NCBI GenBank assembly: GCA_031262165.1
Contig: JAISIF010000076.1
Span: 1-40,143, forward strand
Direction of reading: 5' to 3'
From: Myxococcales bacterium
Lineage (GTDB): Bacteria; Myxococcota; Myxococcia; Myxococcales; UBA5297
Length of the DNA: 40,143 bases
Part shown: positions 5,780 to 40,143 of the stretch, one piece after another
How the letters are laid out: every line of letters begins with the position of its first letter
Numbering within the stretch: position 1 is the first letter of the stretch
Made by a program: the position numbers and the translations under genes
Notes under the pieces: generated by a model
Database searches by the model: none
The model's input: only the letters and a program-made list of their open reading frames with translations
What the model was told of the DNA's origin: nothing

Positions 5780-5939
5780 TGGGACTCATCCCTCGAAGAG
5801 GACCGAGCCCCGCTCGTCCGTGAAACGCCAGCCTTCGTTGCTTCGCGCTTCACTTCCGTCTGGATGCTCCCGGATCGCGCCTCGTCTGACATTCCCCGTC
5901 CTTCGAGGTGCAAAGGTCCTCATCGGGATACGTCCTTGG
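5780..5939 (-). repeat. MITE-like TIR element, family 1, copy D
   Basis: Reverse complement GGACGTATCCCGATGAGGACC...GAAGTGAAGCGCGAAGCAACGAAGGCTGGCGTTTCACGGACGAGCGGGGCTCGGTCCTCTTCGAGGGATGAGTCC aligns end to end with the copy at 37788-37949. Confidence 0.85.
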
Positions 5940-11416: not shown

Positions 11417-11522
11417 GTGGAAGGGACCTCGCCCTCGATGGGTGAAAGAAGAAGCGCCGGGGTCCTCTCTGGTGGAGGACGCCCGGCGCCGATGCCGCGG
11501 ATGAGGAGGAGCGGTAGGGCGT

Positions 11523-11663
11523 GTCCTCAAATTCTCCCGGCGCCACTCTCGTCCGTGAAAAGCCAGGCAGCGTTGCTTCGTCGGTCACTTGCGTCAGCAA
11601 GCTCCCTCCTCGCGCCTCACCTGTCATTCCACGCCCTTTGCCCGGCTCGGTCCGAATTCGAGG
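11523..11663 (-). repeat. Diverged family-1 MITE-like element, copy E
   Basis: Reverse complement GGACCGAGCCGGGCAAAGGGCGTGGAATGACAGGTGAGGCGCGAGG...AAGTGACCGACGAAGCAACG...TTTCACGGACGAGA matches copies C and D in order without large indels. Confidence 0.65.
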
Positions 11664-21084: not shown

Positions 21085-21161
21085 TTAGGACTCATCCCTC
21101 ATTGAGGACCGAGCAACGCGAAGGACGTGGAGAGCCAGACCATTGAGGGACAAGTCCTCAG
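21085..21161. repeat. Internally deleted family-1 element, copy G (about 77 bp)
   Basis: TTAGGACTCATCCCTCATTGAGGACCGAGCAACGCGAAGGACGTGGAGAGCCAGAC joined to CATTGAGGGACAAGTCCTCA; left part and right TIR of the full element with the middle missing. Confidence 0.8.
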
Positions 21162-23401: not shown

Positions 23402-23468
23402 TTTAGGACTTAGGCTGGCGTTTTACGAACGAGCGGGCCGACGAAATAATCGAAGGATACGTCCTTAA
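23402..23468. repeat. Internally deleted family-1 element, copy H (about 67 bp)
   Basis: TTTAGGACTTA joined to GGCTGGCGTTTTACGAACGAGCGGGCCGACGAAATAATCGAAGGATACGTCCTTAA, the right part of the full element. Confidence 0.75.
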
Positions 23469-25805
23469 TTAAAATGAATTCCCGATGGTGAATTCGAATT
23501 GATACGAATCGTCCGTCGAACGGCGCGTGAGCGGAAAACCCCACTCGAAGCGCAGCGGGCCGATGGGCGAGATCCAGCGAACGCCGAAGCCGACCGAGTG
23601 GCGCATCCCGAGGGGCAGCTTGCCCTTGGGCGAGAAGATCGTCTCGTCCACCCCATAGACGTTGCCCATGTCGTAGAAGGCGACGCCTCGGATGCCAACC
23701 GAGTCGAGGATGGGGAACTCCAGCTCGAAGTTGAAGTAGGCCTGCTTGTCGCCGCCCACGGTGAACTCGGACAGGCTCGCGTCCGGCAGACCCTCGGTGC
23801 CCACGCGCACCGTCGGCGAGATGGAGCGCAGCGCGTAGCCGCGCACGTTGCTGATGCCGCCCAGGTAGTAGAGCTCGCTGATCGGGATGTCGTCGCCCTG
23901 GATGTAGCCGAGCGCGCCCTGCACCTTGAAGACGAGCTGGCCCTTCAGGATGGGGAAGTAGAGCCGGACGTTCCCCGAGTAGCGCGTGTAGATGAAGCTG
24001 GCGCCCAGCCATTCGGGCGAGTGCTCGACCGAGGCGCTCTCATAGTGGCCGCGCTTGGGGAATAGGCGATTGTCGCGCTTGTCGTAGATGAGCGTCAGGC
24101 GCAGGCCGCTGCTGAAGCCGTTGCGGAAGCGGTTGGCGAGCAGCAGATCCGCCGTGCCGCCGCTCGGTTCGACCGTCACGTATTCGGGCACGTAGGCGAG
24201 CAGGAGCATCAGGTCGGGCATCAGGTGGTAGCCCCACGTGATGTCACCGCCAACCGAGCCGCGCACGAATCCATAATAGTCGAGCTGCTGTCGGTAGAAG
24301 TTGAAGGCGAAGATCCAGTTCGAGTCGAGGAAGTGGGGGTCGTAATAGGAGAGCTGAACCAGGCTGCGCACCGAGCTGATCTGCGCGGCGAGCGAGGTCG
24401 AGACGCCCCAGCCGAACAGGTTGTCCTTGCTGATCTGGGCGGTGAACAAAAAGCTCTCGAACGAGCTGAAGCCGAAGCCGACCTGGAACGTGCCCGTGGG
24501 CTTCTCCTTCACCAGCACCGTCACGACGACCGTGTCGGGCTTGCTACCTCGCTTGTGGATGACCTCCACGGTCTCGAAGTAGCCGAGCGCCATCACCCTG
24601 TTCTTGGAGACGCGCATACCCGTGCCTCGGAACAGCTCGCCCTCATACACGCGCAGCTCGCGGCGGATGACCTTGTCGCGCGTCGTGTGGTTGCCCACGA
24701 TGTTGATGCGCTCGACGGTGACCCGATCCCCCTTCTTGATGTCGAAGGTCAGATCCACGACGCGCGTGGTTGGATCGATCGAAGTCAGCGGCGAGAGGTT
24801 GGCGTAGGCATAGCCGTCCTCCTGATAGACGTCGGTCAGCGCCTGGATGTCGCGCTGGAGCTGCGAGCGGTTGAAGACCTCGCCCCGCTCCATGGTCAGG
24901 ACGCGGGCCAGCTCCTCGGGCGGCTTGAGCAGGTCTCCGGCAAAATCCACCGTGCCCAGGCTGTATTGCTCGCCCTCGGTGATGGGGATGGAGATGTTGA
25001 TGAAGCGCCGGTCGGCGGAGATCGACACGCGCGGCGAACTCACGCGCACGTTGATGAAGCCACGGTCGAGGTAGGCCGACTGAATCATCATCACGTCGTG
25101 CTGGAGCATGTCCTCGCGAAACGTGCCCGCGCTCGTCAGGAACGAGAGGAGGTTGCCCTCCTTGCTGAGCATCACGTCCCTCAGCTCATCGCTCGACACC
25201 TTCTCGTTGCCGATGAAGTCGATCGATCGGATCTGGACCTTGGCGTGCTCGTTCACGTCGAAGAACACGTCCACCTCGGACGGGCTCGCCGACTCGATCT
25301 TGGGCGTCACCTCGGCGAGGTAGTAGCCCTTCTCGACGTATTTCTCCTGGAGGCGGCGGGCGACCTGTCGGACCGACTCCATGTTGAGGATGGTGAAGGG
25401 CTTGAGCGTGACGATCTCTTTGAGGTCCTCGTCGCTCAGCTCCTCGTTGCCGCGCACCTCGACCTTGCGGATGGCCGGCTTCTCCTCGACCACGACGATG
25501 AGCTGGGGCGCGGGGCCATCCTCATCGAGGAGGATCTGCACGTCAGAGAAGAAGCCGAGCTTCCAGAGCGCCTTCAGATCTTCTTCGGCGCGCGTGATGT
25601 TGAAGGGCACGCCGACCCGCGAGGCCATGGCGTTGCGGATGGCGTCGGCCTCGACGCGGCGGTTTCCACGAACCTCGATGCCGCCCAGGGCAGGCTTTTC
25701 GCCGATGGCCGCCGACGGCGACGCCGCTTGCGAGGAGGATATCGCCGCGACGAGGGACATCCACACGATCAGGAGTTGGGCGGCGATGAATCGGGTCATG
25801 AGCAC
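23469..25805 (-). CDS. bamA: Outer membrane protein assembly factor BamA
   Basis: POTRA repeats (GIEVRGNRRVEADAIRNAM..., IRKVEVRGNEELSDEDLKEIV...); C-terminal barrel with YLGGISNVRGYALRSISP and terminal FEFTIGNSF. Confidence 0.95.
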   Translation of the reverse strand: MLMTRFIAAQLLIVWMSLVAAISSSQAASPSAAIGEKPALGGIEVRGNRRVEADAIRNAMASRVGVPFNITRAEEDLKALWKLGFFSDVQILLDEDGPAPQLIVVVEEKPAIRKVEVRGNEELSDEDLKEIVTLKPFTILNMESVRQVARRLQEKYVEKGYYLAEVTPKIESASPSEVDVFFDVNEHAKVQIRSIDFIGNEKVSSDELRDVMLSKEGNLLSFLTSAGTFREDMLQHDVMMIQSAYLDRGFINVRVSSPRVSISADRRFINISIPITEGEQYSLGTVDFAGDLLKPPEELARVLTMERGEVFNRSQLQRDIQALTDVYQEDGYAYANLSPLTSIDPTTRVVDLTFDIKKGDRVTVERINIVGNHTTRDKVIRRELRVYEGELFRGTGMRVSKNRVMALGYFETVEVIHKRGSKPDTVVVTVLVKEKPTGTFQVGFGFSSFESFLFTAQISKDNLFGWGVSTSLAAQISSVRSLVQLSYYDPHFLDSNWIFAFNFYRQQLDYYGFVRGSVGGDITWGYHLMPDLMLLLAYVPEYVTVEPSGGTADLLLANRFRNGFSSGLRLTLIYDKRDNRLFPKRGHYESASVEHSPEWLGASFIYTRYSGNVRLYFPILKGQLVFKVQGALGYIQGDDIPISELYYLGGISNVRGYALRSISPTVRVGTEGLPDASLSEFTVGGDKQAYFNFELEFPILDSVGIRGVAFYDMGNVYGVDETIFSPKGKLPLGMRHSVGFGVRWISPIGPLRFEWGFPLTRRSTDDSYQFEFTIGNSF

Positions 25806-25915
25806 AGGTTCTTCAAGGGACGGCGCTGATCTGTTTGCGGCTGCGACCGTCGTCGATCCGGGAGAAGCATCCCCGGTTTCATCGAGCGCGTTCGTCGCTC
25901 AAAGCGCGGAAAAAG

Positions 25916-25951
25916 GCGGGCGCTCATAGGGGATTGGGTCAGGGGGCTCAA
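25916..25951 (-). promoter_or_regulatory. Predicted promoter of bamA
   Basis: Minus strand TTGAGC (25946-25951) - 17 nt - TATGAG (25923-25928) followed by CGCCCGCC. Confidence 0.5.
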
Positions 25952-25975
25952 TGGGTTTTTCCCTGCCACTCTCCT

Positions 25976-25990
25976 GGACAATCGAGTTCT
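25976..25990. repeat. Family-2 15-bp box (solo)
   Basis: GGACAATCGAGTTCT. Confidence 0.55.
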
Positions 25991-26100
25991 GGCGATCTCA
26001 ATCCAGACCGATGCGGTTTCTTGGATCGTGGCGCCAGCAACCTTTCGGGCTTCAGAGAAAGATGGACGAGGCCCCGGTCTACGAAGCGATCTCGGAGCTC

Positions 26101-26263
26101 TTACGACTTATCCCTCGATTAGGACCGATCAACGCGAAGGACGGGGAATGCCAGACTTTGGCGCGAGGCTTTGAGCTTCCAGCCGGACGTGAAGAGCGAA
26201 GCAACGAAGGCTGGCGGTTCACGGACGAGCGGGGCGACGAGATGATCGAGGGATAGGTCCTTA
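26101..26263 (+). repeat. Family-1 MITE-like element, copy A (163 bp)
   Basis: TTACGACTTATCCCTCGATTAGGACCGATCAACGCGAAGG...GAGATGATCGAGGGATAGGTCCTTA; near-identical to copy B. Confidence 0.92.
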
Positions 26264-26478
26264 TTGAGTTCACTGCCTTCTTCCGAAGATCTCCATGAGT
26301 GCCATAGGTCGGATGTCAGCCCCATGTGAGAGGATCGGGATGGGGGGGGGTTACCCCCAAGAGGGATTCTGACCCGTTCCCAGAAATGTCAGACCCATCT
26401 GCTCTTCTGGGAGATCGGCTCTGCCTTTGGGCCGCTTCGTTCGCCGAACTGCGCCCAGATAGCTGTCCGAGCCTGAGC

Positions 26479-26641
26479 TTAGGACTTATCCCTCGATTAG
26501 GACCGATCAACGCGAAGGATGAAGACCGCCAGACTTTGGCGCGAGGCTTTGAGCTTCCAGCCGGACGTGAAGAGCGAAGCAACGAAGGCTGGCGGTTCAC
26601 GGACGAGCGGGGCGACGAGATGATCGAGGGATAAGTCCTAA
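26479..26641 (+). repeat. Family-1 MITE-like element, copy B (163 bp) with perfect TIRs
   Basis: TTAGGACTTATCCCTCGAT ... ATCGAGGGATAAGTCCTAA, a perfect 19-bp terminal inverted repeat. Confidence 0.95.
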
Positions 26642-26830
26642 GTCCTTAGGGGCAACGGCCTCTCCTCCAAGGCAGTGCGAAGAGGAGGGAGGCAAGATAC
26701 AAGGGGGGTTGCGTGCCGTGTCCCTAAGGCCCATCTCACGACGCCAAAAATCAGAACTCGCACCCTAGCCCTCAACCCCGAACGGCGCCTGGCCGCGCGC
26801 GCCATCGATGCACAACTTCCCTCGACAGCC

Positions 26831-27259
26831 ATGACCAATCGACTCGCCATCTTTCTTCACAGCGGTGATTACGACCGCGTGCATCAGGCCTTTTCCGCTG
26901 CCGTGGCCGCGACGAGCCTGGGGCGCGAGGTCGATCTCTACTTCTTCTGGTGGGCGCTCGACCGCCTCATTCGGGACGACTTCGACCTGCCGAATTTCGC
27001 GGGACAGCCGTCCGATCAGGCCGTGCAGCGCCTCAGACAGGACATCGACGAGCGCTTTGCCGAAGGTCAGTTTCCGACCACGCGCCAACTCCTCGACAGC
27101 CTGCGCGCCAGCGAGCATGCCCACCTCTTTGCCTGTTCTGGCTCGCTCGCCATCCTGGGCAAACGGGCAAACGCGGTCGAGGGCAAGGTCGAGGCGCTCG
27201 TCGGTTGGAGCATGATCTTCGATAGGACCGCCGACGTCGTGGACCGGTTCGTCTTTTAG
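26831..27259 (+). CDS. DsrE/DsrF-like protein
   Basis: RLAIFLHSGDYDRVHQAFSAAVAATSLGREVDLYFFWWALDRLI...AHLFACSGSLAILG; start at MTNRLAIF. Confidence 0.7.
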   Translation: MTNRLAIFLHSGDYDRVHQAFSAAVAATSLGREVDLYFFWWALDRLIRDDFDLPNFAGQPSDQAVQRLRQDIDERFAEGQFPTTRQLLDSLRASEHAHLFACSGSLAILGKRANAVEGKVEALVGWSMIFDRTADVVDRFVF

Positions 27260-29499: not shown

Positions 29500-29533
29500 A
29501 GAAAAAGCCCGACTCGTATGGAGTCGGGCTTTC
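29500..29533 (-). terminator. Rho-independent terminator of SRP RNA
   Basis: Minus strand AAAGCCCGACTC-catac-GAGTCGGGCTTTTT. Confidence 0.9.
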
Positions 29534-29536
29534 GAT

Positions 29537-29625
29537 GGGATGGTCGAGCACACGAAAGGGATCGCTACCGTTGCTTCCTTCCGGACCTGGCGGGGTTCAC
29601 GGCCTCCCGTTGCCCGACCACAAAC
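29537..29625 (-). ncRNA. ffs: Small signal recognition particle RNA (4.5S type)
   Basis: Minus strand TGGTCGGGCAACGGGAGGCCGTGAACCCCGCCAGGTCCGGAAGGAAGCAACGGTAGCGATCCCTTTCGTGTGCTCGACCA; conserved CAGGTCCGGAAGGAAGCA apical domain and closing stem TGGTCGGGCA/TGCTCGACCA. Confidence 0.95.
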
Positions 29626-29663
29626 TCTGATGAAGGGACCTCGCAAAAAATACCCTCAAAAAC

Positions 29664-29699: not shown

Positions 29700-29713
29700 G
29701 GTTTTTTTGAACG

Positions 29714-29879
29714 GGGCAATCGAGTTCTCGATTGACTCGACAGGCTCACCCCTCTCTCGGGCGCTGCGCGCCACCTCTCTCTGAGAGGGCTGCTTTTGAT
29801 GGAGTCTTCCTCACCGAGCGGGATGTCGGCGAAGACGACAGGGGGCTTGGCGATGCGAATCGATAGAACTCGATTGTCC
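29714..29879. repeat. Box-bounded MITE-like element, family 2, copy 2 (166 bp)
   Basis: GGGCAATCGAGTTCT (29714-29728) and inverted AGAACTCGATTGTCC (29865-29879); internal CCACCTCTCTCTGAGAGGGCTGCTTTTG resembles the 2194-2319 copy. Confidence 0.7.
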
Positions 29880-29909: not shown

Positions 29910-30019
29910 CCTGAATGACCACTGGACGACAGATTGGAGGACGACGAGCAGATCATCGGAATGGCAAAGCCGCATCGAAAGCCCCTGAATGACCACTGGA
30001 CGACAGATTGGAGGACGAC
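29910..30019. repeat. Pair of identical 36-bp direct repeats, 74-bp period
   Basis: CCTGAATGACCACTGGACGACAGATTGGAGGACGAC at 29910-29945 and 29984-30019. Confidence 0.9.
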
Positions 30020-30055
30020 CGCAGGTCGTTGCACGCAACGCCCCTGCCCGTCCCG
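30018..30055. repeat. Family-3 short palindromic repeat
   Basis: ACCGCAGGTCGTTGCacGCAACGCCCCTGCCCGTCCCG. Confidence 0.5.
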
Positions 30056-35239: not shown

Positions 35240-35286
35240 CTTATCGGCGCCGCGCCCCGGCGCCAGCCCATCGGACGGACGCACCA

Positions 35287-35301
35287 GGGCAATCGAATTC
35301 T
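35287..35301. repeat. Family-2 15-bp box (solo)
   Basis: GGGCAATCGAATTCT followed by CGATTTG. Confidence 0.55.
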
Positions 35302-35451
35302 CGATTTGCATGACGCAGGGGCATCGAATTTTCCCTCGCCCCCTCGCTTCGCGTCGGCCCTCTGCCACGCGTGGCAAACGGAAATGATCTTGGGAGTCAT
35401 CAGGAGCGCTCCCTCGCAAGGCCTGCGGGCGAGGGCTGGGGAGAAGGGGTC

Positions 35452-37790: not shown

Positions 37791-37949
37791 GGACTTAGCC
37801 CTCGATGAGGACCGAGCACCTCGAAGGACGGGGAATGCCAGACGAGACACGAGGCGGGCGCTTCCAGACGGAAGTGACCATCGAAGCAACGAAGGCTGCC
37901 GTTTCTCGGACGAGCCGGGCTCGGTCCTCATCGATGGATAAATCCTAGG
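37788..37949 (+). repeat. Family-1 MITE-like element, copy C
   Basis: TAAGGACTTAGCCCTCGATGAGGACCGAGCACCTCGAAGGACGGGGAATGCCAGACGAG...GAAGCAACGAAGGCTGCCGTTTCTCGGACGAGC...ATCGATGGATAAATCCTA. Confidence 0.88.
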
Positions 37950-39979: not shown

Positions 39980-40026
39980 CAACCATCTTGCGGTTCAAGG
40001 GGGAAGTGCGAGGGGGAGATCGCTCA

Positions 40027-40041
40027 GGGCAATCGAGTTCT
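40027..40041. repeat. Family-2 15-bp box
   Basis: GGGCAATCGAGTTCT followed by AAATTTACTTGACAG. Confidence 0.6.
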
Positions 40042-40143
40042 AAATTTACTTGACAGCCCAACACCGCCAGGCGGGCCTTTGAGTAACTCCAAGCAGGTGT
40101 TCGAGAACTCTGTTTCACCCTGAAAAAGAAAAATCGAACCAAG

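Follow-up and report, generated by a model that had tools for sequence, protein, structure and literature searches.

Insertion sequences (ISs) of the IS1031 group in the IS5 family prefer TNA as their target, which becomes a 3-bp repeat, and some members carry two overlapping ORFs joined by a frameshift (PMC12016507). Elements with features of both the IS1031 and IS427 groups have also been described (PMC2516522). Among bacterial MITEs, Correia, Chunjie and QMITE2 are non-coding, TIR-bounded, mostly intergenic elements that reach high copy number and include deleted derivatives, and ERIC is present in 711 copies in Photorhabdus (PMC10969869). The family described here shares all these traits of Correia, Chunjie and QMITE2 and differs from them in its TIR, its TNA duplication and its sequence; the element type itself is well known, and this family is new.

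We analyzed a 40,143-nt stretch of contig JAISIF010000076.1 from a Myxococcales bacterium (hereafter, the window). As the initial annotation had reported, it holds two near-identical repeats, copies A and B (Table 1), which are 96% identical over 162 nt and lie in direct orientation with a spacing of 378 bp. The difference between them that had been noticed, ACGGGGAAT versus ATGAAGACC, was also seen, and there is no transposase inside either copy or between them. The letters of the perfect 19-bp TIR described for copy B, TTAGGACTTATCCCTCGAT...ATCGAGGGATAAGTCCTAA, are exact, but the outer TTA is the target duplication and the TIR proper measures 16 bp. At the right of copy B the terminal TAAGTCC occurs twice in tandem, which puts the true right end at 26645; the flanks of copy B read TTA/TTA at this outer end versus TTA/TAA at the inner one. 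The extra right-terminal TAAGTCC also occurs in four other MITE copies and in one IS of the genome (C107), and in all five MITE copies the agreement with the left flank is at least as good at the outer end as at the inner one.

The two copies occupy a region that had been described as divergent between bamA-like and dsrE-like genes. The divergent arrangement and the bamA identification hold, the latter by POTRA repeats and Omp85, but the DsrE-like match of the small gene on the right is below threshold. Homologues of this small gene were found in two relatives (G002, 70% identity; G004, 64%), and the 1.5-kb flank of the G002 homologue showed no bamA frame. A promoter and terminator scan of positions 25800-26840 returned nothing within copies A and B. 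Besides these two, the window holds five more copies, some degenerate or deleted.

Table 1. Features of the window, with filled target sites and candidate source ISs elsewhere in the same genome. Plain numbers are window positions.
Feature	Position	Strand	Details
MITE copy	5782..5935	-	flanks TTG/TTG (CAA/CAA on the element's strand)
Degenerate MITE copy	11515..11658	-	decayed TIRs
Internally deleted MITE derivative, 70 bp	21088..21157	+	flanks TTA/TCA
Internally deleted MITE derivative, 59 bp	23406..23464	+	flanks TTA/TTA
bamA-like gene, left of divergent region	23469..25805	-	POTRA repeats and Omp85
Left target-site duplication TTA, copy A	26101..26103	+	pattern based on 70 copies
MITE copy A, 157 bp	26104..26260	+	TIR CGACTTATCCCTCGAT / ATCGAGGGATAGGTCC
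Right target-site duplication TTA, copy A	26261..26263	+	
Left target-site duplication TTA, copy B	26479..26481	+	
MITE copy B, 164 bp	26482..26645	+	16-bp TIR, tandem TAAGTCC at right end
Right target-site duplication TTA, copy B	26646..26648	+	
Small gene, right of divergent region	26831..27259	+	sub-threshold DsrE-like match (PF13686, E 0.0025)
Full-length MITE copy	37791..37945	+	flanks TAA/TAG
Filled target site	L065:7214		TTA/TTA; empty paralogs L034, L077
Filled target site	L073:6493		TAA/TCA; empty paralog L084
Filled target site	L052:12263		TTA/TTA; empty paralogs L073, L066, window 40027
C190 IS			TTA followed by GGACTTATCCCTAAATAA; best-matching TIR; cut off by contig end
C107 IS			TAA followed by GGACTTGTCCAGAAATA...AAGCCCTAAGTCC, then TAA; 945 bp to inner right end
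C50 IS			TCA followed by GGACTTATCCATAAAT; right flank mismatched (TCA/TTG)

The consensus element is about 157 bp long (157-164 bp in the resolved copies A and B) and is bounded by TIRs GGACTTATCCCTCGAT...ATCGAGGGATAAGTCC, which measure 16 bp in the consensus and in most copies. It has no coding capacity beyond mechanical ORFs, its length is below the 0.6-kb limit for MITEs, and internally deleted derivatives occur in the family. Within the alignment, CTTTG alternates with CGGG/CGAG at three separate internal sites in many combinations.

The further copies that the initial annotation expected BLAST to find are abundant. Copy B matched at least 40 places in its own genome with E <= 2e-40, among 333 first-look candidates, and a profile built from 30 copies detected 70 copies, 46 of them full length, in a 644-kb sample; such numbers greatly exceed chance. 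Contigs chosen by number gave 21 copies in 209 kb and the remaining sample 49 in 435 kb, and extrapolation from the 644-kb sample gives approximately 330 copies (300-340) per 3.02-Mb genome. The median identity to the consensus was 90%. Only 1 of the 70 copies lies inside a gene, though 74% of the sample is coding by a crude codon-based gene call.

The element was not found in 198 other genomes of the phylum, two of which belong to the same genus; the lone match outside its own genome was a weak one of 26 bases (E 1e-3, in G017). Plasmids searched by blastn gave no matches to the element, and exact core patterns gave none in viral contigs and GTDB genome contigs. The repeat family is a non-autonomous MITE private to one species among the genomes searched, and its spread probably postdates the split of this species from its sequenced relatives. 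The MITE reading of the initial annotation is borne out: the element is present in many copies, ends in TIRs, sits almost always between genes, and has both target duplications and empty sites.

To define the target, we examined the flanks of all 70 copies. TNA stands at both flanks in 39 of them, and the middle base is equal in 26 of these 39. Permutation gave 13.6 on average and did not reach 26 in any of 50,000 rounds. Flank matches longer than 3 bp were absent in the first 46 copies. Because the middle base is matched and no match extends beyond 3 bp, the element duplicates 3 bp of its target, TNA, rather than the TA of IS630/Tc1-type elements that had been suggested earlier.

The empty-site comparison that the initial annotation had recommended was run within the genome, where three insertions lie in sequences with uninterrupted paralogs (Table 1). 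In all three cases the empty paralog has one TNA triplet and the filled site has two; at L073:6493 one flank has changed, since the flanks read TAA/TCA. Together with the TNA duplication, these empty sites show that the element has been mobile. At L036, where a MITE copy lies within an IS5 gene, rearrangement of the right flank prevented its use as a further case. A different interspersed repeat, CAGGGCAATCGARTTC-TAA-ATTTACTTGAC, is present in the window at 40025-40142, 2192-2221, 29712-29741 and 35285-35314 and recurs genome-wide; at 40027-40142 the similarity runs for about 115 bp, and the internal TAA of this repeat is a recurrent MITE target. Another repeat-like sequence, CGTCATTGCGAGGAGCGA...CGACGAAGCGATCC, adjoins MITE ends or sits between them (left flank of L020; L057:4846-4935). 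At 29910-30055 the window also contains a 36-nt sequence repeated exactly and in direct orientation, with copies at 29910 and 29984 (74 nt apart); it overlaps a 44-nt repeat common with 2350-2393.

Copies A and B are the closest pair found in the family (95.5% identity over aligned columns, against 93% for the next pair). Together with their proximity of 378 bp and shared orientation, this might point to local duplication or gene conversion instead of two insertions, but the repeat ends at the element ends, each copy has its own TTA, and the flanks differ, which makes such an origin unlikely. Because the flanks are unrelated, we take A and B to belong to a young sublineage and to have inserted separately, although one of them may later have been converted by the other. 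In copy B, the cluster of changes carrying ATGAAGACC (window 26521-26532 versus 26592-26600) restores pairing between the left and right arms of that copy (ACCGCCAG / CTGGCGGT), an outcome expected of quasi-palindrome correction by template switching, in this single case.

Candidate sources were sought by scanning the IS5-type genes of the same genome for TNA-bounded ends. The matching type of IS, in this genome and elsewhere, has ends of the pattern TNA followed by G(A/G)ACTTATCC[C/G]TAAATA and a DUF4096 transposase in two overlapping frames, and three ISs of this genome (C190, C107 and C50) have MITE-like GGACTTATCC-type ends. One of the own-genome ISs matches 12 terminal MITE bases exactly. 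A GG start is common to the MITE and the own-genome ISs, whereas relatives elsewhere start with GA. The transposase matches Pfam PF13340 above the cut-off and NCBIfam NF033580 with E values of 1e-18 to 1e-29; the NF033580 scores fall below the full-length cut-off because each frame is partial, and the two overlapping frames of C107 jointly span model positions 2-257. Among the ISs of this type, flanking duplications are TAA/TAA at C107, L137, L140 and L141 and TTA/TTA at L143, and are unmatched at C50.

Homologous ISs occur in other phyla (Acidobacteria, Lentisphaeria, Ruminococcus and others), where the ends are of the type TNA followed by GAACTTATCC[C/G]TAAATA. Where both ends could be resolved, the IS measures 918-949 bp and its TAA or TTA duplications match; the two-frame layout was present in most of those checked. 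The label IS1031-like refers to the TNA target, the 3-bp duplication and the two frames. The MITE interior showed no homology to the IS loci, only the ends being shared; MITE matches at these loci consisted of nested MITE copies and two matches of 19-24 bases (E 0.003). Since C190 is cut off and most other IS5-type genes of the genome are broken, the active source remains a candidate only.

The initial annotation had anticipated an autonomous IS with the same TIR. ISs with similar ends do exist, but they belong to IS5 and not to IS630. Mobilisation at TA by an IS630/Tc1-mariner transposase, as first suggested, would agree with the enrichment of T and A beside the ends; however, duplication involves the whole TNA triplet, whose middle base agrees on the two sides, the only IS630-type trace in the genome is one 30-residue remnant of a DDE_3 transposase, and the TIR-matching ISs are of the IS5 family. 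The duplication and the DDE_3 fragment thus disfavor this route, which we consider extremely unlikely and which would need an IS630 element with GGACTTATCCC ends to revive. Just as unlikely is that the element is a palindrome of REPIN/REP type and owes its movement to a Y1 (RAYT/IS200) transposase. The genome does have Y1 transposase genes (9 matches) and the element folds as a hairpin, yet its symmetric TIRs, its nested empty sites and a target duplication of 3 bp argue otherwise, and its ends resemble those of IS5-type ISs instead. To our knowledge, Y1 transposition does not duplicate its target.

Based on these data, we assign a probability of about 90% to the reading that this is a MITE of about 157 bp mobilised in trans by an IS5-family (IS1031-like) transposase and inserting at TNA. 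The transposase would recognise the terminal GGACTTATCC(CT) repeats and would place the element at TNA, giving rise to the 3-bp duplication; the trans action of an IS5-type enzyme is what we infer from the ends and the target.

The element is also predicted to form a full-length imperfect hairpin, with a fold z of -8.0 for the + strand and -5.3 for the - strand; in 67 of 70 copies the + strand has the more stable fold (mean -63.7 versus -47.4 kcal/mol). Such folding would be in keeping with a conserved structured RNA or an ERIC-like regulatory hairpin under selection on the + strand transcript. Against this, double compensatory cells numbered 23 compared with 16.7 (sd 3.6) in shuffled data, 16 of the 23 lying in the TIR, and broken cells 315 compared with 324 (sd 5). 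Orientation relative to tandem neighbours is unbiased (17 same, 22 opposite), relatives lack the element, and copies are freely lost or decayed. Rfam gave no match for the element, the sole match in the window being the bacterial small SRP RNA (29530-29626, - strand; RF00169, 68.7 bits). Because covariation is weak and orientation bias absent, a maintained RNA function finds no support, and we regard it as highly improbable.

Most simply, the strand asymmetry would be a property of the founder sequence. A more novel but very unlikely idea is that the asymmetry, in which the + RNA pairs via G-U and the - RNA cannot, is ancestral and that the founder was a structured transcript or a strand-specific RNA step was selected, that is, an RNA gene captured by IS5. 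If true, the family would differ from a plain deletion derivative.

On the preferred reading, mobilisation in trans by an IS5-family transposase, the genome is a clear record of how a non-autonomous element multiplied in a burst, most of the host's IS5-type transposase genes having since decayed. For a family extrapolated to about 330 copies in a 3-Mb genome, sequence has resolved the target rule, the empty sites and the probable source IS.

Like the IS5/IS1031 group, for example ISLrh (PMC12016507), the system combines a TNA target, a 3-bp duplication and an IS5-type transposase, and the ISs share with that group two overlapping frames, a length of about 0.9 kb and a TIR of similar length. 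In contrast to ISLrh, the MITE is a non-coding derivative with GGACTTATCC rather than GAACCTGTCTAG ends, and its interior is unrelated to the IS. Its extrapolated copy number of about 330 per 3 Mb exceeds that of most bacterial MITEs and is below that of ERIC in Photorhabdus. As in ERIC, the element forms a full-length imperfect hairpin, is intergenic and, as ERIC does in some genomes, reaches hundreds of copies, whereas no sequence relation to ERIC was established and in the present family the duplication is defined as TNA and a candidate for the source IS exists.
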